64,000 bases of DNA from Rhodococcus jostii RHA1 (GTDB lineage Bacteria; Actinomycetota; Actinomycetes; Mycobacteriales; Mycobacteriaceae), in contig NC_008270.1 in NCBI RefSeq assembly GCF_000014565.1, positions 310,001 through 374,000 on the forward strand. Direction: 5' to 3'. This document shows positions 7,163-62,395 of the stretch, piece by piece. The position numbers were made by a program, and so were the translations under genes. Position 1 is the first letter of the stretch. Each line of letters opens with the position of its first letter. The notes below the pieces were generated by a model, which was not told where the DNA came from, ran no database searches, and saw nothing but the letters and a program-made list of their open reading frames with translations.

Positions 7163-7425
7163 TCAGCCCTCGATGATCTGCCGCACGATCTCGGCGAGCT
7201 CGTGGGGGCGATCGCTCTGCACGGAGTGTCCAGCGCCAAGACCGTGCGGACGACGGTGGCGGGACTGCGGTGCACAAACTCGGTGGCGTCCTCGGTGGAG
7301 ACGAACGCCGATGTACCTCCGCGGATCAGTGTGAATTGCGCGGCCGACGCGCTCACGTCTTCCCACAGTGCCGACGAATCGGATCGACTCTTGTCCAGCA
7401 CGTCGTACCGCCATGGCGGGTTTGC
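7163..7425 (-). pseudogene. Alpha/beta hydrolase, C-terminal remnant
   Basis: The reverse strand encodes WRYDVL then SDSSALWEDVSAS and RGGTSAFVS, matching the last third of the intact hydrolase at 20008-20922. A one-base frameshift near 7240 splits it: the terminal GAGHSVQSDRPHELAEIVR, which carries the catalytic His, is in another frame. The nucleophile half is missing. The 5' junction falls directly behind the stop of the tandem GntR gene, so a deletion removed the thiolase, NUDIX and N-terminal hydrolase genes present in the second copy. Confidence 0.8.
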
Positions 7426-7433
7426 GCTCTGTC

Positions 7434-8882
7434 TCAGACTCCTTGGACCGTTGGTGGGCGGCGCAGATGGCGGCCCAGTCGGTGGCGAGCTAGGGCGCTG
7501 TCGCCGTTGAGCAGCGCGCTGAGCACACTTGCATGCGCATCCTGCCCGTCGCGATCGTCGGCCACAGGTACAGCGTCCAAGCCCTCGGCGGCGAGCAGGA
7601 TGTGAGTGAAAAGCTCAAGGATTGGGTCGTCTGCGAGACGGGCGAAGATCACGGCGCGCTCGTCCGCCGTGGCCCCGCCACAAAACTCGGCGGCAGCCTC
7701 GAGGCGCTCGTGCATCTCGGGCTCGTGCAACCGCTCCGTCACGGCAGCCAGTGCACCGAGCTCGAGGATGTCGCGCACCTGCCTCACTTCGTCGGTGGAG
7801 GTTCCCCGGTATCGGAGGTATGTCCCCGCCGCCTCGATGCTCGCCGCCGGATCGGGCTCGGTGATCACGAGGCCGCCGTACGGGCCGCGCCGCATCCTGG
7901 CGATGTGGTGGTGTTCGAGGAGCCGAACAGCCTCGCGGAACACAGCGCGGCTGACGCCCGAGCGCGCCTGCAGCTCCGACTCCGAGCCGAAGATTTGCCC
8001 GGCCTGCATGCCGCTGGTGACGATGTCCGTCATCAGGCGGTGCGCCACCGTCTCCGCGAGTTTGGCAGTGGGTGGAAGCGGCGCGGGGGAGGACGACCCA
8101 CGATCGATTGGCCTCTGCTGCACCGACAGGAGCCAGGCGTTTACTGCACGCAGATGTCGAACCGATCGGTGTTGCGCGAGGACATGATCCCCGGAGACGA
8201 TGGCGTCGACGATCGCCTTATGCGCGTGATCGGACTCCGACTTGAGGTCCTGCAGCTTCCGGTCGATGGGCAGCGTCGGCACCTGCGCGTAGTTGATCGT
8301 TAGTTGGACCAGGACGTCCACAAACAGGGTCAGTACGGCACTGCCGCAGTGATCGGCCAGCACGATGTGGAGTCGTTCGTGACCGGTCGAATCGAATCCT
8401 TCGGCCTCCTGCTCACGGCGCAGAGACGCACGTAGGTGGTTGATCCCATCCTCGGTCAGGCGTTCCGAGGCGAGCCGAGCGGCGGCCGGCTCGAGCAGAA
8501 CGCGTGCCCGGAGCAGGTCTGCGACGTTGGCGCCGACAAATTCGAGGTAGACGGCCATGGCTCGGGCCAGCGGATGCGCGTCGGGAGCCTGTACGACGAG
8601 CCCACCCGGAGAGCTGCGGCGTGTGCGGACGACGCCCCGATGCTCCAAGAGCCGGATGGCTTCCCGTAGCGCGCCTCGACTCACGTCGTAACGGCTACAG
8701 AGGTTCTCCTCGGAAGCGAAAACCTCTCCGACCCGCCAGCCGGCAGCCGCGATGTCGGCTTCGAGTCGCTGGGCGAGGACAGCGGCTAGTTTCCGCTTGC
8801 GCTCCCCTTCGGTGCGAGGAGGGACAGGGGCTGCAGGAATCTGGGTCTGTCGTGTTCCCGTCGACATCGCGCCCCACCTCAC
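7434..8882 (-). CDS. Tandem GntR/FadR-type regulator (HTH-FCD-HTH-FCD)
   Basis: The 482-residue protein contains two full FadR-like regulators in one chain. HTH 1 is at about residues 31-95 (VSRGALREAIRLLEHRG) and FCD 1 at about 110-235. HTH 2 is at about 265-330 (VSRAVFREAVRLLEHHH) and FCD 2 at about 345-470. FadR proteins normally bind palindromes as homodimers with one HTH each, so this chain may bind as an internal pseudo-dimer. ATG at 8882 or 8867 could start translation. A conserved 15-bp box lies just upstream (8897-8911). Paralogues are at 22775-24193 (intact) and 12876 (fragment). Confidence 0.88.
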   Translation of the reverse strand: MRWGAMSTGTRQTQIPAAPVPPRTEGERKRKLAAVLAQRLEADIAAAGWRVGEVFASEENLCSRYDVSRGALREAIRLLEHRGVVRTRRSSPGGLVVQAPDAHPLARAMAVYLEFVGANVADLLRARVLLEPAAARLASERLTEDGINHLRASLRREQEAEGFDSTGHERLHIVLADHCGSAVLTLFVDVLVQLTINYAQVPTLPIDRKLQDLKSESDHAHKAIVDAIVSGDHVLAQHRSVRHLRAVNAWLLSVQQRPIDRGSSSPAPLPPTAKLAETVAHRLMTDIVTSGMQAGQIFGSESELQARSGVSRAVFREAVRLLEHHHIARMRRGPYGGLVITEPDPAASIEAAGTYLRYRGTSTDEVRQVRDILELGALAAVTERLHEPEMHERLEAAAEFCGGATADERAVIFARLADDPILELFTHILLAAEGLDAVPVADDRDGQDAHASVLSALLNGDSALARHRLGRHLRRPPTVQGV

Positions 8883-8896
8883 CTCATCGGTCTTCC

Positions 8897-8911
8897 ATTG
8901 AGTATACTATC
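8897..8911 (-). promoter_or_regulatory. Predicted operator of the tandem GntR regulator
   Basis: In gene direction the sequence is GATAGTATACTCAAT. It matches boxes upstream of the two other GntR-type genes (12766-12780, 24223-24237) at 13-14 of 15 positions and lies 14-29 bp from the possible starts. Autoregulation is inferred. Confidence 0.6.
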
Positions 8912-8984
8912 AAACCTGGTTCGGCCAGGCGACCCTGTGGCTTTTTCGAGGGACGGTCTCGATTTCGACCCCGAATCGAATCGG

Positions 8985-9130
8985 TGACTTATGAGGGGGG
9001 CATGGTTTCTCGTAAGCAGCGTCGTAAGCCGAAGCCGTACAGTTCGATCTGACTGATGCGCAGGAGTTGATCGACCGATGGTCCCGGTACCTTCGGCTGG
9101 TCGCCGCCCATCCACTCTCGTCGCCGGATA
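8985..9130 (+). mobile_element. IS5-family element, 5' end remnant
   Basis: From about 8965 to 9130 the sequence repeats, in inverted orientation and with few mismatches, the 5' end of the IS5-type element at 13030-13870 (start MVSRKQRRKPKPY followed by a shifted FDLTDAQ frame). Only the N-terminal transposase region remains. Confidence 0.7.
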
Positions 9131-9299
9131 ATACCCGAGTCGCTTGACCCGATCACACGCGCTCGGACACGCGAGGATGAGGTCGGGCAGCTCGTGGTCA
9201 CTGATATCGATAAGGCGGTGCGCCGCTCGTTCGATCTGGCACAGAAGATCTCGTGCGCCACTCGTCCTCGCAGCGCCGCTGCGGACGTCACCACTCTCG

Positions 9300-9620
9300 C
9301 GTTTGGCCGCTGGGCCGCTCGGGGGACGTCACAGTTGTACAGGGCCGCGCGGTCATGCCTGTGGAGGTGTGGTCGGCGATTGAGCAGCACGACGAGACCC
9401 GCCTACGGTATTCCAGATAGTGCGGCCGGAGCGCGAAGTTGACAAGCTGCACATCCGCGTGGGCTACAACCGCGAGCGGACAACCAACTTGGACGAGCTG
9501 GTGGAACGGTTGTCTTCCTCTGTCCAGGAGCGGGTCGAAGTCTCTCCAACGGTCGAGTTGATCGAGGAGGGTGTGCTGCTGGCTCGATCTATCTCAGCCG
9601 CCAAGATCCTAGGATTGTGA
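9300..9620 (+). pseudogene. Phenylacetate-CoA-ligase-like protein, C-terminal remnant
   Basis: Frame pieces read GRSGDVTVVQGRAVMP then, after a frameshift near 9410, FQIVRPEREVDKLHIRVGY and RTTNLDELVERLSSSVQERV. This resembles the C-terminal domain of PaaK-type adenylate-forming CoA ligases (GR-D--VV-G--V-P and a final V-VSPTVELI segment). The adenylation domain is absent and the 5' side abuts the IS5 remnant, so it is a dead fragment. It hints at a lost aryl- or acyl-CoA activation gene. Confidence 0.55.
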
Positions 9621-10292
9621 AGGCATGACAAGTCAGTCCATCATCGAGCGATCGGCTGAGCTTGCGGGCAAAGGACCAGCCATGATCGCCGCTTCCGGGT
9701 CGATGACAATCCCTGTCGATTTCACGGTCGGCGAGGAGGACCTTGACCGCGACGCTGCGTTGGCAGGCACACCGGCGAGTTGGATGGGATCTCCCGTGCG
9801 TTCAGGTCTGCCAGCTGCCAGCCCACATTCACCTAGATCTCGGTCAAGCTGCGCCCGAGCTCTGGATCACCTCAATCGTCCCGACACCTAGCCGCGCCAC
9901 ACGTCGTCTACTGAATTCGGCCACCTGGCGTTCCGTCCGGCAATCCGTCATAGCGACGAACCTCCGGAGCACAGTCATAAACGGATTGGAGGGCATCCGC
10001 GAGCCGGCGTGCCCACCTCCTGGCCCCGAGAGGGCACGTCTGAAACCAGGCCGGTTCACACTCACGGATCGAGAAACAGTCGTTCATTGGGCAACCTGAC
10101 ATCCGGCAAAGAACGACCGATGGCGGAACGGACGAGTTCGAGCGCGCACCGGCGCTTTCGCTGCCAATCGCGGATCAAACTCTTGTCTGCCGCTTCTGGC
10201 GCCTGGTATTCGAAAGCCCCACCACCCAACCAGATACGCACGTGTACATCGTCGTCGGCGCCGCTGCCACTTCTGCTCGATAGATGACTGCG
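9621..10292. other. No recognisable gene; degenerate interval
   Basis: A short open frame at 9625-9891 (+) starts MTSQSIIERSAELAGKGP and could be the N-terminus of a broken gene, but it matches no family I recognise and its second half loses coding character. Nothing else is supported up to 10292. Confidence 0.4.
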
Positions 10293-10757
10293 TCAGGTGG
10301 AGACGGCAGAGGGTAATCTGCCACTCTGCCAGGCCGACGTCAAAGTCTCCAACAGTGACCGTTTAAAACATCGCGATTTCTCGGTATCCATTTGACTCGG
10401 CTGCAATCCAGCACGGACCAACTCTTCGAAACGTCTACGGTCGGTGCCGAATGCGACCAGTACGTCGCCGGGCCGAGCACGCCCGAACGGGGCCCACCGA
10501 ATCGCAAACTCGATATACGGCACCGCATGTATGTCGACGCAACGGGCGCCACTCAAAACTTTCAGCTCGTGCAGCGAGGACCTAACCCATTGCGCGCCAG
10601 AATTCATTACTTCCTGTGGCGTCGCCTTGTGGGCGTAAAAGTGTTGCGTTCGCTTTGTAGGTGAGATTTTACCGCCATGTGTGCTGTGACGGCTTTCTCG
10701 TCGATTTTGTAACTCCATGGTTTCCTCGAACTCGGTGGAATCAGAACATACTGTCAC
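10293..10757 (-). CDS. Hypothetical protein
   Basis: The 154-residue frame has a credible soluble-protein composition in its second half (GDVLVAFGTDRRRFEELVRAG). I do not recognise the family. It lies alone between a degenerate region and the acyl-CoA dehydrogenase on the other strand, and it uses many codons that are unusual here, so it may be foreign or spurious. Confidence 0.35.
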   Translation of the reverse strand: MTVCSDSTEFEETMELQNRRESRHSTHGGKISPTKRTQHFYAHKATPQEVMNSGAQWVRSSLHELKVLSGARCVDIHAVPYIEFAIRWAPFGRARPGDVLVAFGTDRRRFEELVRAGLQPSQMDTEKSRCFKRSLLETLTSAWQSGRLPSAVST

Positions 10758-54982: not shown

Positions 54983-56090
54983 ATGGTCGACCTGTTGACG
55001 CCGTGCGGTTCCACGGTGATGCATCGTCCGCCGGGTGGTATCCGGGAGTGCACTCGCCTCAATCAACTCGCCCACGAGTTCCACACCGACCGCAGCGCGA
55101 TCGTCCGCGTCGCACTGCACCGCTTCCTCACCGCGGCGGGACGATTCCGGCACCCGGTTGCTCCGCGAAGACGCCCGCACCGATCTGACCTGCCGCACCC
55201 GCGTGTACGTCAACCCCTCCACACTGGTCCGGCTCGAGCAGCTGATCAGCCGCAACGGCGACCCCCTCACCTCTGCGGCCATTCGGGTCGCGGTCCGCCG
55301 ACTCCCCGACGACCCGGGAGACCTCGCCGCCGACCTGGCCACGATCGGCGCCGCCCGCGACCTGACCCCGGAAACCCTCGGCCCGCGCACGAACGTGCAC
55401 CTCGACGACGACCTGCGCGACCAACTCGACACCCTCGCCGGGCAGCTCGACTCCGACCGCGCCGAACTCATGCGCCTGGCCGCCCGCCAGCTCCTGGCCA
55501 ACCCGCGAGACCTCGAGAAGGCGGTGACCGAGGAGATCTACCGCGGGGACGCCAACCGGGCCAGACTCCTCGCCCGGAACACCCGCCGGCAGACCGCGGA
55601 CCAGGCCACCGCCGAGCCCCCTGTCCGCAAGGCGCCGAGCCCGCAAGGGAACCCGTTCGGGAAACGGCACGTCTTCCGGTTCGATGAGGACACCAAACGC
55701 CGCCTGGAAGACCTGGCGGACGAGTACGGTCCCCGCCGGCTGTCCGCGCTGCTCCGCGGCGTCGGGATTCGCAGACTCATCGAGAACCCGGCAGCCGATG
55801 AGGCACTGGCGCAGGCACGCCGCGTCGCCGCCCCGCCGCGCACAGCCCGGGTCGACGTCGCCCTCGACGACGAACTCCTCGCGCACCTCGACGCCCTCGC
55901 CGAACGGCTCGGCTCGAACCGCCAGGAACTGGTGCATCTGGCGGCCACACGCATCCTCCGTTTCCATCACAACATCGAGAACCGGATGCTCGACGAGATG
56001 TTCCGCGCCCCGACCAGCCGGAAACACCTGCTCGCCAAACATGCCCGCCGTGAGCGGATTCGTCGGAGAGATCGCGGCAGCGGCACCTGA
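54983..56090 (+). pseudogene. Protein of five tandem ribbon-helix-helix units (one frameshift)
   Basis: The frame 55035-56090 encodes four ribbon-helix-helix-like units, each a short strand followed by two helices and a linker. They start near TRVYVNPSTLVRLEQL, TNVHLDDDLRDQLDTLAGQL, HVFRFDEDTKRRLEDLADEY and ARVDVALDDELLAHLDALAE. A fifth unit (RECTRLNQLAHEFHTDRSAI) is in another frame at 54983-55135, joined by a one-base shift. RHH proteins normally bind DNA as dimers of one unit, so a chain of five is unusual. Whether the shift is real or the first unit is lost is unclear; the four-unit form could still be translated. Confidence 0.65.
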
Positions 56091-56471: not shown

Positions 56472-56510
56472 GACCAGCCCCCGGCTGCTCCTGCGCCGTA
56501 CAACCGGCAT

Positions 56511-56540
56511 GTGACCTGCGGAAATGACACGTCCCCGGGG
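56511..56540 (+). repeat. 30-bp dispersed element, copy 1
   Basis: Core GGAAATGACACGTCCCC, preceded by TGACCTGC. It lies 75 bp before the Lsr2 start and upstream of TAGGGT (possible -10 near 56570). See copies at 57321, 59195 and 60237. Confidence 0.75.
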
Positions 56541-56614
56541 TCGGTTGCCCTGATCGGCCGCGGCCGCCAGTAGGGTTCTGCCTGCTGTATCGAGACGTGA
56601 GAGATCGGGGAACT

Positions 56615-56977
56615 GTGGCGTGCAAGGTAGTTGTCGAACTGGTCGACGACATCGACGGAACCGTCTTCGGTGGGGACGGGGAGAGCATCACCTTTTCCGT
56701 CAACGGGGTGGATTACGAAGTTGATCTGAAAGGCAAGCACGCCAGCGAGTTTCACAAGCAGATCGGATTCTTCATTGAGCACGCCACCCGGGTCGGTGGC
56801 CGCAAACGACGTTCCGATCGTTTCGCGGTCTCGGACGCCCCGGTGCGGCGGCGCGGGAACGGCAAGGAGATCCGCGCCTGGGCGGCCGAACAGGGCTACG
56901 AAATCTCCTCGCGCGGGCGCATTCCCGCCGAGGTCGAGCAGGCGTTCCAGGACGCACTGAACGCGAAGGAGCGTTGA
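56615..56977 (+). CDS. lsr2: Lsr2-type nucleoid-associated protein
   Basis: The 120-residue protein has the Lsr2 order: KVVVELVDDIDGT, a strand-rich dimerisation domain (FSVNGVDYEVDLKGKHA), a linker and the DNA-binding C-terminus with the RGR motif (EIRAWAAEQGYEISSRGRIP). Lsr2 bridges DNA and silences AT-rich foreign genes. A copy on an accessory replicon can mask the element and its cargo. GTG at 56615 fits the family N-terminus. Stop overlaps the next ATG. Confidence 0.92.
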   Translation: MACKVVVELVDDIDGTVFGGDGESITFSVNGVDYEVDLKGKHASEFHKQIGFFIEHATRVGGRKRRSDRFAVSDAPVRRRGNGKEIRAWAAEQGYEISSRGRIPAEVEQAFQDALNAKER

Positions 56978-57306
56978 TGCGATCGCTGCGTAATCCCTGG
57001 TACCGGGCCTCGGTGCGCCGAGCGGCGAGCGCGCATTGGCTGACCACCGGCAGCCGCGGGTTACGAGGCATGACCGGTGAGCCGGTGGAACTCAGCGACA
57101 CCGAGGCGGCTACCGTCCTCGCTGCCCTGGTCGAAACCACCGGTGGTCGGTGGCCGGCCCACCCCGCGCGTATCGCCCGCACGCTCCGCCGGCTCGGCAT
57201 CGACGGCAACACCGAGCAGATGGCCACTGCCATCACCGCTCTGGTACGCGACCCGGACTGGTCCCACCGCGCCCGAGAGATCACGTCCAGCGCATCGGAC
57301 TGGTAA
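56977..57306 (+). CDS. Hypothetical protein coupled to Lsr2
   Basis: ATG at 56977 overlaps the Lsr2 stop (TGATG). The 109-residue protein has a basic N-terminus (RSLRNPWYRASVRRAASAHW) and a helical second half (DTEAATVLAALVETTGGRWP, IARTLRRLGIDGNTEQMATA). Family unknown; coupling suggests a function with Lsr2. Confidence 0.55.
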   Translation: MRSLRNPWYRASVRRAASAHWLTTGSRGLRGMTGEPVELSDTEAATVLAALVETTGGRWPAHPARIARTLRRLGIDGNTEQMATAITALVRDPDWSHRAREITSSASDW

Positions 57307-57320
57307 GCCGGATTGGCCCA

Positions 57321-57350
57321 TTGACCTGGGGAGATGACATGTCCCCATCG
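57321..57350 (+). repeat. 30-bp dispersed element, copy 2
   Basis: TTGACCTGGGGAGATGACAT-GTCCCCATCG, about 24 of 30 bases like copy 1. It follows the stop of the Lsr2-coupled gene. Confidence 0.75.
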
Positions 57351-57393
57351 ACCGCAGTCCGGGCCCGGCTATTGGCACAGGGAAGCTCTCTAG

Positions 57394-57930
57394 TCAGGCG
57401 TTCTCGCTCTGCTTGTTCGCCACTTCGCCGACTGCACTCTTGAGCCACCACCGGAGATTCCGCCTTCCGACCAATCGCGCACCATCTCCGAACCGGCTTC
57501 GTTCCTGCGAAATGAACGGAACCGAATTGCCCTCGACCACAGGCTCTTGTGTCCAACGGTGCGGCGACCCGTAGATCGCATTGAGGGCGTCGCGGTCATT
57601 TCCCAGCTCTACTAGCTCATCTTCGGAGATTTCATGGTGATGGAGCGGATCGGGAGCACCATCATTTCCTACTCGACGATTGAGCTCCTCGTAGAGCCTG
57701 ACCAGCTCACCAGCAGCCTCTCCCACCTCGGAATGTCCGCGCAGACGTTCGATAAGGAAGGGCAGTACAGGGATGAGGGCCCTTCCTTCTGCGCGGTCGA
57801 TCCAATCGTCTTCCCAACCGAGGGTTCCGTCGGGGCTTGTCTTTGGCTCCCCGAAGAGCTGACGTGCTCCATCGACGGTATATCCCTGGTCGTACAGTTC
57901 TTGGGCAGTGATCCACGACTGCTCGGGCAT
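57394..57930 (-). CDS. Hypothetical protein
   Basis: ATG at 57930 has AGGAG at good spacing. The 178-residue protein is acidic (GWEDDWIDRAEGRALIPVLP, ISEDELVELGNDRDAL) and starts MPEQSWITAQELYDQGYTVD. No family recognised; not a secreted or membrane protein. Confidence 0.6.
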   Translation of the reverse strand: MPEQSWITAQELYDQGYTVDGARQLFGEPKTSPDGTLGWEDDWIDRAEGRALIPVLPFLIERLRGHSEVGEAAGELVRLYEELNRRVGNDGAPDPLHHHEISEDELVELGNDRDALNAIYGSPHRWTQEPVVEGNSVPFISQERSRFGDGARLVGRRNLRWWLKSAVGEVANKQSENA

Positions 57931-57945
57931 TTCACTCCTGCTCAC

Positions 57946-58133
57946 TCTTGTTACGAGCTTCTCAGTCGGACAGTTGCGCGGTGCTTGGCGCGAAGACAGT
58001 GAATCCGCCAGGTGATGGTTTCTCCAAGGACCCCCGCACGCGCTCGGGCGTGTCGCTCAGCCGGACAGTAGTCGCGCCAGCTGAAAGTCAGGTCCTCAAT
58101 GGTCCGATCCGCCGCTGGGTCAGCGGATCCAGG
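57946..58133. other. Short interval without gene
   Basis: Contains the likely promoter of the 57394-57930 gene; nothing else seen. Confidence 0.3.
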
Positions 58134-59081
58134 TCAGAGGTTCCAGAGTCGGAGTAGCGCGGCACGCAGGCTGGCGGAGATGATCCGGTGATCTGTGGTC
58201 AGCCGGGGATTGGGGTGCCCGAAATCGGCGAGCTGTTGTTCGGCGTCCGCAACCGAGACCGGCTGCAGATCCGCCCGAACGAGCAAGAGGTGGCCGAAGG
58301 CCCTGTGCGTGTGCGGAATCGCGATGGCGTCTGAGTCCACGACTGCCGGCGGGTAAATCCAGTCATTGTCGTCGGTGAAGATGAGAACATCGCCACGCCT
58401 GAGGCGGGCGCGCCGGTCGTCGAGGCGGAACCATTCGAGCTGATATGTCGCTGCGGGCCCCGCGGTGGCGGTGTGATGCCGGCGCGCCTGGGTGTCCCAG
58501 GTCTGTTGCTCGGTGACGCTGGGTTCGTATTCGACGATGTGCCGCAGGAACATCCGGGTCACCCGTGCAGGAAGGAAATCCAGTTCGGCGCGCAACCGGC
58601 CACCGATCCCGGGTATCGGCACCGACCGACCGATCTGCCATGCGGTGGTGGCGTTGTCGAGAAACGCCTGATCAACCTCGGTGATCTCCTCGATACCGTC
58701 GATGAACGTCCAGGCGGCGGCCACGACCTCCGGGTCGTCGGTGATGACCACGGCTTCATCGGCGATGGTCGAGCTGTGGGAGGCATTCGCGGAGCCGATG
58801 ACCGCCCGCCGACTGGTGGCGATGACGTTGGCGTGCAGGTTCGGCGACGACAGGACCCTCACACCGGCCTCGACATAGTACGCAAGCGCAATCGGCGAGG
58901 TCACATGCGCGCGCACCGCCGCCCGGGAGGCGTTCACGACGAGGAGATCGCCGGCCCGCAACGGCAGCAGAGTGGGTGCGTCCTCGCCGAGGTAGGCGAT
59001 CGCGGCGTGACGCGGCCCTCTCACTCGAATGGCGCGGGTGATGTGCGGCCAGGGACCCGGCCCGTGAAATGTCGTCCCCAT
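58134..59081 (-). CDS. Phospholipase-D-like protein
   Basis: The 315-residue protein has one PLD-like site: LHANVIATSRRAVIGSANAS. The His and the GSxN are present, but the usual Lys two residues after the His is Asn, which would weaken catalysis. Many bacterial PLD-like proteins with one motif act as dimers on nucleic acids or phosphodiesters. The remainder (RRGDVLIFTDDNDWIYPPAV) is unassigned. Confidence 0.65.
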   Translation of the reverse strand: MGTTFHGPGPWPHITRAIRVRGPRHAAIAYLGEDAPTLLPLRAGDLLVVNASRAAVRAHVTSPIALAYYVEAGVRVLSSPNLHANVIATSRRAVIGSANASHSSTIADEAVVITDDPEVVAAAWTFIDGIEEITEVDQAFLDNATTAWQIGRSVPIPGIGGRLRAELDFLPARVTRMFLRHIVEYEPSVTEQQTWDTQARRHHTATAGPAATYQLEWFRLDDRRARLRRGDVLIFTDDNDWIYPPAVVDSDAIAIPHTHRAFGHLLLVRADLQPVSVADAEQQLADFGHPNPRLTTDHRIISASLRAALLRLWNL

Positions 59082-59194
59082 ACGTCGAACGGTAGCGCGG
59101 ACGTGATGTGCTGTACCCCTATTGGCTCGGACCCGGAGCGTACGGTGCAGCCCATGAGGCCAAATGATCCCGCCGGTCTCTGCGAAAAGCTGTG

Positions 59195-59224
59195 ATGAAC
59201 TGCGGATATGACACGTCCCCATCG
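59195..59224 (+). repeat. 30-bp dispersed element, copy 3
   Basis: ATGAACTGCGGATATGACAC-GTCCCCATCG. It lies between the starts of the PLD-like gene (minus) and the end of the next minus-strand gene. Confidence 0.75.
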
Positions 59225-59252
59225 TTTCTGGTCGACGCCGCCGCGTCCCGCC

Positions 59253-60089
59253 TTACAGCGGCGGCGGCGGTTCATCCCCGTGGACGAGCCTCCACCACAG
59301 GGTCGCGCGCCGACGAGGGATCGGGCCGACGATGATCACGTCGGCCCGATCTGCGGCGGCGAGCATGTAGGGCCGGCGGCGTTCGCGCCATTGCGCGGCG
59401 ACATCCTCGAGGCCGTCGATGCTCATCGGACTGTCGAGGGTCTCGCACGCCAGTTTCAGCCACGGGACGAGATGGCGTTCGGCTTCCCGGCTGATTCCGT
59501 TGCCCGCGAGGGTGTTCTCGACGAGAAGAATTGTCAGATCGCGGCGGATCCGCCACCGCAGTTCAGCTTGATCGACAATGCAGGACCGCTCGGTGGCCCG
59601 ATCGTGGTCGGCGCCGGTCGAGTCGCCGGGGGCGGTGCGAAGCCGTCGGGTGGTCCTGCGGGGTACTGCCCCGAATATCTCGGGTCGTTGGTGTTGATCG
59701 AGGGTGCGGGCGTGGGTGCAGGCGTCGCCCAGTTCGGTGAGCGCGGGCACAGATGGCCGCCGGTGGGTGGCGAGTTGGGCGAGCATATCGGCGCCGAGGT
59801 CTTCGGCGCGCGCAAAGACTTCCAGCCCGTGCCGGTAGCGCAGGACCGCGGCGTTCTCCCAGTGGCGGGCGAGTGCGCGTTCGCGGCGGGGGAGGCCAGC
59901 GACAGCTGCGAAAAATCGTTCCTGGGCTTGGCGTGCTCTATCCCGTAACTCGGTGTCCGCGGCATCGCGGCGGTCGGGGGTGAGGCCGTGCAGCGGGATC
60001 AGCGCTTCCCGCAACTCCTGCGCAGCGTAAGCGAGGTTTTCGAGATCGACGGGGTGGGCGCGCGTGCGTCGCGTGGGTCCAAGCGCCAT
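59253..60089 (-). CDS. Hypothetical protein
   Basis: The 278-residue protein is helical and charged (DLENLAYAAQELREALIPLH, RRDLTILLVENTLAGNGISR, LVPWLKLACETLDSPMSIDG). ATG at 60089. No family recognised; its size and position suggest a replicon-borne accessory gene. Confidence 0.6.
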   Translation of the reverse strand: MALGPTRRTRAHPVDLENLAYAAQELREALIPLHGLTPDRRDAADTELRDRARQAQERFFAAVAGLPRRERALARHWENAAVLRYRHGLEVFARAEDLGADMLAQLATHRRPSVPALTELGDACTHARTLDQHQRPEIFGAVPRRTTRRLRTAPGDSTGADHDRATERSCIVDQAELRWRIRRDLTILLVENTLAGNGISREAERHLVPWLKLACETLDSPMSIDGLEDVAAQWRERRRPYMLAAADRADVIIVGPIPRRRATLWWRLVHGDEPPPPL

Positions 60090-60236
60090 GCTGGGAAGCT
60101 TAACCGGACCGGTAGGGCCGCGATTGCGGCGCCGACCGCGACCGAGCTTGCCGGCCGGGTGAGAACTCGCACCAGCGGCACCGGCTATACATCAGCGCTG
60201 GCGATAGTGGTGTCGCATCAGCCCCAGAAGTGTCCT

Positions 60237-60266
60237 TTGACCAGTAGAAATGACACGTCCCCTGCC
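60237..60266 (+). repeat. 30-bp dispersed element, copy 4
   Basis: TTGACCAGTAGAAATGACAC-GTCCCCTGCC. It shares the 14-base core AATGACACGTCCCC exactly with copy 1. Confidence 0.75.
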
Positions 60267-60507: not shown

Positions 60508-60628
60508 ATGAGCGAGCAACGTCGACGTGACTTCAAGGTCGCACCCTTCGGTGGGCGTGCAGATCGGACATCGGAGGAAGCAGCGCCCGCAGACCGTGGT
60601 CCGGCAACCGGCCAGCCGGCCGGGTTAG
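60508..60628 (+). pseudogene. Small gene interrupted by IS701-type insertion
   Basis: ATG at 60508 opens MSEQRRRDFKVAPFGGRADR, which is cut at about residue 40 by the insertion. If the IS and one TTAG are removed, the frame continues GRRGNGDLGSAIDGR and stops. Family unknown. Confidence 0.45.
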
Positions 60629-61977
60629 TACTGCAACGGCACTTGCTTGACAGGTAGACGATACTGGTTGTGTGGTCCTCGATCTGGTTGCTGCCGAGTT
60701 GGAAGCGTTGCATGAGCGGATCTCCAGTCGGTTCGCCCGGTCGGAACCGCGGTCCCGGGTCCGTGAATATGTGACGGGTTTGGTTGCGGGTCTGGAACGC
60801 AAGAACGGGTGGACCCTCGCCGAGCGAGCCGGTGAAATGAGCCCGGACGGTATGCAACGCCTGCTGCGGCGGGCCGACTGGGACGTCGACGGGGTCCGCG
60901 ACGACGTGCGTGACTATGCGGTCGAACGCCTCGGCGATCCGGCCGGCGTGTTGATCGTCGATGACACCGGTTTCCTCAAGAAGGGCACCCGCTCGGCCGG
61001 GGTGCAACGCCAGTACTCGGGCACCGCCGGGCGCGTGGAGAATTGTCAGATCGGGGTGTTCCTCGCCTACGCGTCCGGCGCCGGGCACGCGCTCATCGAC
61101 CGGGAGCTCTACCTCCCCGAGTCCTGGACCTCCGACCGGGACCGGTGCCGCGCCGCCGGGATCGGCGACGAGGTGGAGTTCGCGACCAAACCCGTTCTGG
61201 CGCAGCACATGATCGAACGCGCCCTCGACGCACAGGTCCCATTCTCCTGGGCCACCGCCGACGAAGCCTACGGGCAGGTGAAGTACCTGCGGGTCTGGCT
61301 CGAGGAACGCGACATTTCCTACGTGCTGGCCACCCGCCGCAACGACGACGTGTTCACCCCGGATGGCCGCGCCGGCCGCGCCGACGAGATGATCGCCGCG
61401 ATCCCGCCGAAACAGTGGCGCCGCATCTCCGCCGGCGACGGCGCCCACGGCCGACGCGAGTACTCCTGGGTCCGGATCCCGATCCGGATCGCCTGGGCAC
61501 CCGGGCGCGGGCACTGGTTGCTCGCCCGCCGATCACTGTCGGATCCGACCGAGATCGCGTACTACATCTGCGCCGGACCCCGCCGCACCACGCTCACCGA
61601 ACTCGCCACCGTCGCCGGCTCGCGGTGGCGGGTCGAGGAATGCTTCCAACAGGCCAAGAACGAGGCCGGCCTCGACCAGTACCAGGTACGCACCTACCGG
61701 GCCTGGTACGCCCACATCACCTTGTCGATGCTCGCCCTCGCCTGGCTCGCAGGCACGAAAACCGAAGCCATAAAAGGGGAATCGGAACCGATGATCAGGA
61801 CATGATCGGCTACACGGTACCCGAGATCCGCCGCCTACTCGTGTATCTGATCCTGCGACACGCCCACCCCGACGAGCACACCTGGTCCTGGTCACACTGG
61901 CGGAGACGCCGACAACACCAGGCCCGCACCTCCCACTATCGAACCCGCGGTCACCTGCCATAAGTGCCGTTGCAGTA
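60629..61977 (+). mobile_element. IS701-family insertion sequence
   Basis: Perfect 16-bp inverted repeats TACTGCAACGGCACTT at 60629-60644 and 61962-61977 enclose the transposase gene. TTAG is duplicated at 60625-60628 and 61978-61981, the 4-bp type target site known for IS701 elements. Insertion lies between two small host genes. Confidence 0.88.
60672..61805 (+). CDS. IS701-family transposase (C-terminal frameshift)
   Basis: The 377-residue DDE transposase has VLIVDDTGFLKKGTRSAGVQ, SWATADEAYGQVKYLRVWL and SRWRVEECFQQAKNEAGLDQ. Just before the stop the frame leaves homology at an A4G4 run (61771-61778); in the -1 frame the end GYTVPEIRRLLVYLILRH and WSHWRRRRQHQA continues to 61963, the usual IS701 C-terminus. 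So either the last ~50 residues are lost or they are added by frameshifting. Confidence 0.85.
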   Translation: MVLDLVAAELEALHERISSRFARSEPRSRVREYVTGLVAGLERKNGWTLAERAGEMSPDGMQRLLRRADWDVDGVRDDVRDYAVERLGDPAGVLIVDDTGFLKKGTRSAGVQRQYSGTAGRVENCQIGVFLAYASGAGHALIDRELYLPESWTSDRDRCRAAGIGDEVEFATKPVLAQHMIERALDAQVPFSWATADEAYGQVKYLRVWLEERDISYVLATRRNDDVFTPDGRAGRADEMIAAIPPKQWRRISAGDGAHGRREYSWVRIPIRIAWAPGRGHWLLARRSLSDPTEIAYYICAGPRRTTLTELATVAGSRWRVEECFQQAKNEAGLDQYQVRTYRAWYAHITLSMLALAWLAGTKTEAIKGESEPMIRT

Positions 61978-62395
61978 TTAGGCCGTCGTGGGAATGGTGA
62001 TCTCGGCTCTGCCATCGATGGCCGATAGCAGGTAATGCGGGCAGGTGACCACTTGCCGCGGCAGGGGAATCGCCCGGCGGTCGGTGTCGAGGTAGAGGCG
62101 GTATGCGAGCTGCCCGCGCCGATGGACGCCGGTGCCTGGGTCGACGGAGCCGAGGAAGTACCCATGCGCGGAGTCGAGGGTCGAGAAGATCGCCCGCGCC
62201 CACTCGGCAGGCTCCGCGGGCGGCAGATGCCGTGGCACGCCCGTCTGCGCGTCGACGGTGTGCACGATGACCATGACGGCGAACCCGGCCGCCGCAGGGA
62301 ACCACTGCTCGGCCGCGACGTCGAACGGTGCAATGGACGTGTGAATCCGCAGCTCGATGTGCGTTTCCGGTGCGCGCCGCGGCTGTGACGATGTG
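61978..62395 (-). pseudogene. Unknown protein, 5' end lost to ISL3 element
   Basis: The reverse frame reads APFDVAAEQWFPAAAGFAVM, EWARAIFSTLDSAHGYFLGS and ends AEITIPTTA at the TTAG target of the IS701 insertion. Composition is credible and the end intact, but the N-terminus runs into ISL3 sequence at about 62395. Family unknown. Confidence 0.5.

Follow-up and report, generated by a model that had tools for sequence, protein, structure and literature searches.

The 64-kb window analysed here, the whole stretch from position 310001 to 374000 of replicon C3 in the four-replicon genome of Rhodococcus jostii RHA1 (G000), carries four copies of a short one-directional sequence sign that is also scattered along the arms of Rhodococcus linear chromosomes and plasmids, mostly aimed at the nearest end. 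Searching the window with GGAAATGACACGTCCCC at three or fewer mismatches returned exactly four matches, all on the + strand (56520, 57330, 59204 and 60246). In 100 shuffles of the window the mean was 0.27 matches, with a maximum of 2 and never 4, which bears out the claim of a first-pass annotation that four real copies share one direction. A repeat search of the window recovered the same four copies as one 29-nt family, with 25-bp cores starting at 56512, 57322, 59196 and 60238.

Copy 1 (56501–56536, core 56512–56536) lies upstream of an lsr2-like gene (56597–56977, + strand) whose product has Lsr2 dimerisation and DNA-binding domains. The position before lsr2 had been noted at the outset. 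The distance, then given as 75 bp, is 60 bp from copy 1 if the longest open reading frame (ORF) is taken, and the annotated orthologue on locus L065 starts 78 bp past its own copy. A 110-aa ORF (56974–57306, +) follows, and copy 2 (57311–57346, core 57322–57346) sits between two gene ends ahead of a 183-aa ORF (57394–57945, −); neither ORF has a Pfam match. Further on are a gene for a PLD-like protein (58134–59081, −; PLDc_2 E 0.0028, under the curated cut-off), with an orthologue annotated as cardiolipin synthase family, then copy 3 (59185–59220, core 59196–59220), a 278-aa ORF (59253–60089, −) and copy 4 (60227–60262, core 60238–60262). All four copies are intergenic, as first claimed, provided that the gene at 58134 starts at 59081 rather than 59222; the start at 59081 matches the annotated orthologue on L066 (948 bp). 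Paralogues of the four-copy cluster are found on C2 (100–108 kb) and C4 (79–82 kb). No Rfam family was found at any window copy, the lone sub-threshold match (58739–58800) lying away from the copies.

Consensus and distribution

The consensus was drawn from 149 copies in loci of at least 5 kb, 106 of them non-redundant by sequence with flanks. It consists of an A/T tract, A-rich or T-rich, at −10 to −7, an open spacer of 6 nt (−6 to 0), and then TGAMCWGSGGWRATGRCAYGTCCCS; its information is confined to positions −10 to +26, ~36 bp. Among the window copies only copy 3 has the full AAAA tract (59185–59188), the tract position reading CAAC in copy 1 (56501–56504, a weak match), GATT in copy 2 and GAAG in copy 4. 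The leading TTGACCTG that had been ascribed to all copies is exact in copy 2 only, the others reading GTGACCTG, ATGAACTG and TTGACCAG. Stems of at least 6 after the core were found in 45 of the 106 copies compared to 37.4 (standard deviation 3.8) in shuffles, at most a hint, and an RNA or hairpin element was set aside.

With TGANCTGNGGANATGACAYGTCCCC at three or fewer mismatches the genome held 35 copies and the reversed pattern none. Thirty were on the three plasmids (C2 12, C3 10, C4 8) and five on the 7.8-Mb chromosome C1. The wider search of the replicon and related plasmids that the first-pass annotation had proposed yielded 35 copies in the genome and many more on Rhodococcus plasmids, and added telomere copies, chromosome copies and an outward polarity to what the window alone had offered. 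In a scan of the genus, 17 of 28 genomes carried a copy, against one match for the reversed control across all 28; the one-contig genomes G001, G014 and G025 had none. At two or fewer mismatches, 11 of 201 genomes of the family had a copy, in 5 of 31 genera. The exact pattern occurred in five stretches of the genome contigs searched, four from Rhodococcus and one from Nocardia, and in none of the viral contigs; 20 phage records gave weak matches only (best E ~2). Among 72,556 plasmid records, 77 matched a 37-nt consensus, 56 of them from Rhodococcus and 11 from Prescottella, and in 21 of the 60 plasmid rows listed the best place was 68–652 bp from the record end. Linear plasmid records held 1–17 copies each; these numbers and the polarity and end counts below exclude record W06 (NZ_CP069243.1), whose copies mirror each other. 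The closest spacings seen between copies were ~80–140 bp.

A description of the element was not found in the literature searched, many subscription papers lying outside that search. Papers containing motif strings were unrelated, as judged on titles and the beginnings of abstracts, and PMC12169178 concerns a different element of strain RHA1.

Copies at telomeres and along the arms

A copy was present at most 700 bp from 27 of 38 replicon ends, with the CCCC side of the element to the tip in every case. This included seven of the eight ends of this genome, where it lay 523–549 bp from the tip; the left end of C3, which has another telomere type, had no copy. Across 15 linear plasmid records, 20 of 30 ends had a copy within the same distance, all tip-facing, and the seven of these records picked for window similarity alone had one at 9 of 14 ends. 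When 14 ends were aligned, six of them from this one genome, the copy started 489–549 bp from the tip and the core block was 0.95 conserved, compared to 0.25–0.62 just outside it and at most 0.57 inside; the left end of C3 and end L13d_R, with no copy in the first 3 kb, were omitted. A second conserved block, ~100 bp from the tip, scored 0.98. The same sequence thus occupies a similar place, in the same direction, in the 14 aligned and otherwise divergent telomeres, as expected of an element of invertron telomeres. At several ends a second motif copy was seen 0.5–1.1 kb inward of the telomeric one (left end of C2, 1076; L146, 1169; L152, 1581).

Away from the tips, the polarity persisted. With the replicon midpoint, in place of a mapped origin, as the divide, 102 of 120 copies in the 15 linear plasmid records were aimed at the nearer end, and so were 79 of the 97 copies more than 1.5 kb from the ends. 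Among the collected loci 96 of 135 copies pointed outward, or 59 of 88 flank groups (p 0.0018). Loci and records share ancestry, so that these counts are not independent, and the ORF caller behind the polarity, gene-placement and gap-break counts is a rough one. Copies avoided called ORFs, 39 of 152 lying inside where 68% of the DNA (fraction 0.68) is called coding. Copies at random in coding DNA, or a known insertion sequence (IS) or promoter consensus, had been named beforehand as grounds for giving up the element; neither was found.

Conservation of the core

The window copies were mapped by their flanks in other replicons, which gave 19 two-sided comparisons out of 40 tried against one reference. 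Core identity averaged 0.954 and flank identity 0.875, the core being above the flank in 17 of the 19. Over 175 pairs within flank groups the core was 0.912 identical and the flanks 0.515 and 0.520.

Interpretation and rival explanations

We tentatively regard each copy as a putative asymmetric protein-docking site of ~36 bp that would serve the maintenance of ends and arms in the invertron-type linear replicons of Rhodococcus. This is the best of the explanations considered, held just short of an even chance; the smaller, flank-anchored contrast was taken into account both here and in weighing the relics discussed below. A copy forms the inner border of the conserved telomere, ~490–550 bp from the tip and facing it; further copies, mostly intergenic, follow along the arms and are mostly aimed at the nearer end; and the core varies less than its surroundings. 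A single protein would read the A/T tract together with two conserved blocks, TGAMCWG and ATGRCAYGTCCC, and its action would be directed to the end: it might load or stop a DNA motor, for instance, or serve as an anchor for arm and end. As a first guess, itself unlikely even if the docking site is granted, the reader may be a plasmid translocase of the FtsK/TraB family or an adaptor of one; a Tap-like telomere factor is our second guess. Of the 17 genomes with sites, 14 have a plasmid FtsK/SpoIIIE-type protein, as against 1 of the 11 without (p 0.0003), and PMC5434932 names a TraB translocase among the conserved modules of the linear plasmid pVAPN.

Several points weigh against a docking site. 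The co-occurrence of FtsK-type proteins and the TraB module are weak evidence, because the sites sit on linear plasmids. Known signals of the FtsK type are much shorter, and a multi-ribbon-helix-helix (multi-RHH) gene correlates with the sites as well (8 of 17 site-bearing compared to 0 of 11 site-free genomes, p 0.01). The end and polarity counts are partly biased, as 8 of the 15 records were picked for a motif match, mostly near an end. Genes in the collected loci lean outward too (281 of 447), so that gene direction may account for some of the polarity. Another part is explained if arms were extended past old ends, as the remnants described below appear to indicate, since such growth alone would leave outward-pointing copies. 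The flank-group contrast (0.91 vs 0.52) is overstated, since only copies that matched the profile could enter it, and in 2 of the 19 flank-anchored comparisons the core fell below its flanks (copy 2 in L055, 22/25 vs 97/98, and copy 2 in L071). Protein binding at the site is itself putative.

A bolder form of the docking site, which we consider rather doubtful, is a directional address code on linear replicons. The 36-bp arrows would lead along the arms to the nearest telomere, the last of them ~545 bp from the tip, and one putative reader protein or motor would sense from them the direction of the DNA end. Terminal palindromes, Tap and Tpg make up most of what is known of how the ends of terminal-protein-type linear replicons in actinobacteria are marked, protected and inherited. 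A conserved polar site at most of the Rhodococcus telomeres studied, together with its sister sites on the arms, gives a defined bait with which to look for the missing protein, and laboratory strains allow tests in which the site is deleted or inverted.

Scattered copies could instead be repressor, silencer or elongation-stop sites between plasmid genes, those at telomeres having another role or none, which we think unlikely. In 67 of 96 cases the gene on the TGAC side had its end facing the site (background 53%), site and gene shared one direction in 55 of 88 flank groups (p 0.025), and a copy precedes lsr2 on several plasmids. However, the gene on the CCCC side had its start towards the site in 49 of 96 cases, close to the 47% background (397 of 846 gene ends), and its direction agreed in 46 of 84 groups (p 0.45). 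Some copies, such as copy 2, lie between two gene ends, and in two annotated telomeric stretches that were checked the telomere copy faces ~545 bp without a gene. The same start counts do not support the promoter elements entertained in the first-pass annotation; a sigma-70 promoter was rejected, there being no conserved A/T box past the core and no excess of gene starts. The iterons offered there as another choice do not fit copies that are spread over whole plasmids and also lie at telomeres. Internal copies as functionless relics of former telomeres seem to us improbable. Telomere sequence does follow some of them: ~40 bp, judged by eye, after pROB01:453899 and R. opacus strain 9:565613 before other DNA begins (one event, since the flanks are the same), 57 bp retained at C1:780347, and matches to the telomere profile over 116–157 positions at three copies in genome G015. 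At PD630:201155 telomere-like sequence extends to the site from its inward side and ends at its outer edge. These few were the only internal matches to the telomere profile among 140 flanks scanned, many copies are recognisable at 25 bp without a telomere flank, and the 17 of 19 comparisons with the core above the flanks speak against relics.

Recombination between movable gene modules in the manner of cassettes, or between arms and telomeres, was once our leading idea. It was weakened by a test at the level of intergenic gaps and by the fact that alignments are expected to end at a conserved 25-mer, and we now give it a small chance. In its favour, the 278-aa gene is missing from C4, where a single hybrid copy (C4:79041) stands in for copies 3 and 4, with the flank of copy 3 on its left and that of copy 4 on its right. 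A PLD-gene module lies between direct copies in L069 and L070 (93.8% identity over 1030 bp) with unrelated DNA upstream. With telomere loci excluded from both tests, 15 of 115 flank groups had homology blocks that stopped at the edges of the motif, a level reached by 1 of 196 shifted controls. Against it, breaks were not commoner in gaps with a copy (352 of 717 comparisons) than in gaps lacking one (454 of 772). Of the gap length classes the shortest alone, 60–150 bp, was reversed (0.67 vs 0.48; 13 and 32 gaps). The edge effect appears to reflect mostly a conserved sequence amid changing surroundings, since a conserved 25-mer within variable DNA makes alignments stop there. The hybrid site, the one clear case after loss of a module, can arise by plain deletion between direct repeats, nor was any recombinase found that could be linked to the sites. 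The same gap counts, which show no excess of gene-order breaks, speak against a cassette site of the attC or pdif type. That the element is an operator for the multi-RHH (CopG-type) protein, whose gene neighbours the cluster in the window and which was suggested earlier as the reader, is very improbable. On several plasmids the gene is next to the cluster, a long asymmetric site could be read by several RHH units, and the occurrence of the gene follows the sites as given above. Nevertheless 9 of the 17 site-bearing genomes, including G004 (23 copies) and G015 (20 copies), have no homologue at E 1e-8, and the window gene is missing the initial part of its orthologue and changes frame; of that suggestion only a site for some DNA-binding protein is kept. 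The transposon end of Tn3-like type, with a GGGG tip and an A/T-rich inner part, is scarcely credible. The element resembles Tn3-family ends in that its reverse complement begins SGGGACRTGYCA and has an A/T tract near position 33–36. Tn3 transposase matches (PF01526) were seen on C1 alone, at 121 kb and 3.27 Mb, with no copy nearby, and the four window copies share one direction. A Tn3-family inverted repeat was therefore rejected, as no PF01526 gene is bounded by copies and the matches lie away from the motif, and so were MITE-like pairs (miniature inverted-repeat transposable elements): the two outward-facing close pairs, G011:C5:464923/465148 and G015:C2:68811/69036, share ~36 bp at the site only and have no common body. 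The initial view that the copies are not recognisable IS ends held, with no transposase tied to them.

Comparison with known systems

FtsK orienting polar sequences (KOPS) and the SpoIIIE recognition sequences (SRS) are polar, and KOPS are 8 bp long and very numerous. Like the Rhodococcus site, they are dispersed and point from the replicon middle to the end. The same polarity was seen here in 79 of 97 internal copies or, by flank group, in 59 of 88. The site differs in its ~36 bp of information, in numbering 1–17 copies per plasmid record where KOPS are far commoner, and in its telomere copy. The clt/TRS sites of TraB in Streptomyces conjugation use the same motor class that these plasmids encode. 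The TRS are 8-bp tandem repeats at the transfer locus, however, and here long single sites are spread along arms and at ends, so that this identity was rejected. Stoperators of mycobacteriophage L5 are 13-bp sites of the phage repressor and are, like the present copies, asymmetric, scattered between genes and of preferred direction. Site direction agreed with the TGAC-side gene in 55 of 88 groups and with the CCCC-side gene in 46 of 84, a mixed picture for sites whose direction would follow transcription; unlike the present site, stoperators are not known to have telomere copies.

The sps of the Streptomyces plasmid pIJ101 is a 12-bp palindrome within or beside spdA that is bound by SpdA2 (PMC4170104). 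It shares with our element the conservation of a short sequence across actinobacterial plasmids, and is bound by a plasmid protein and affects stability; the Rhodococcus site is asymmetric, long, dispersed and telomeric. In Rhodococcus invertron telomeres the first ~500 bp are 88–93% identical, with terminal repeats and a GCTXCGC motif (PMC7276702), and the present motif forms the inner edge of that conserved stretch. The accessible part of that paper describes the terminal repeats and GCTXCGC, and neither this site nor internal copies.

Further features of the locus and related plasmids

The multi-RHH gene at window positions 55035–56090 matches about residues 88–435 of 435-aa orthologues in two frames and appears broken; full-length copies lie on G008:C3 and C4. 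An insertion at 60626–61979, with a transposase-like ORF (60672–61805) and end repeats at 60621–60644 and 61962–61985, was not seen at the matching point in C4 and six of the compared plasmids. The PLD-like gene of C2 and that of R. pseudokoreensis (L068) are interrupted at one common point, corresponding to window 58641–58644, by a large insertion (loci L054 and L068). In L068 the insertion (7404–10379) carries recombinase/integrase genes.

The telomere remnants inside replicons, beside internal copies, lie in L162, L163 and L164, in L109, and in L126 and L129. In L070, the 173-kb record NZ_CP069243.1, the copies are arranged in mirror image, as would be seen in an assembly with an inverted duplication. 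The motif-rich stretches L120, L155 and L158–L161 carry genes common across Rhodococcus plasmids, namely those for ADP-ribosyltransferase, ADP-ribosylglycohydrolase, DUF6884 and Lsr2.

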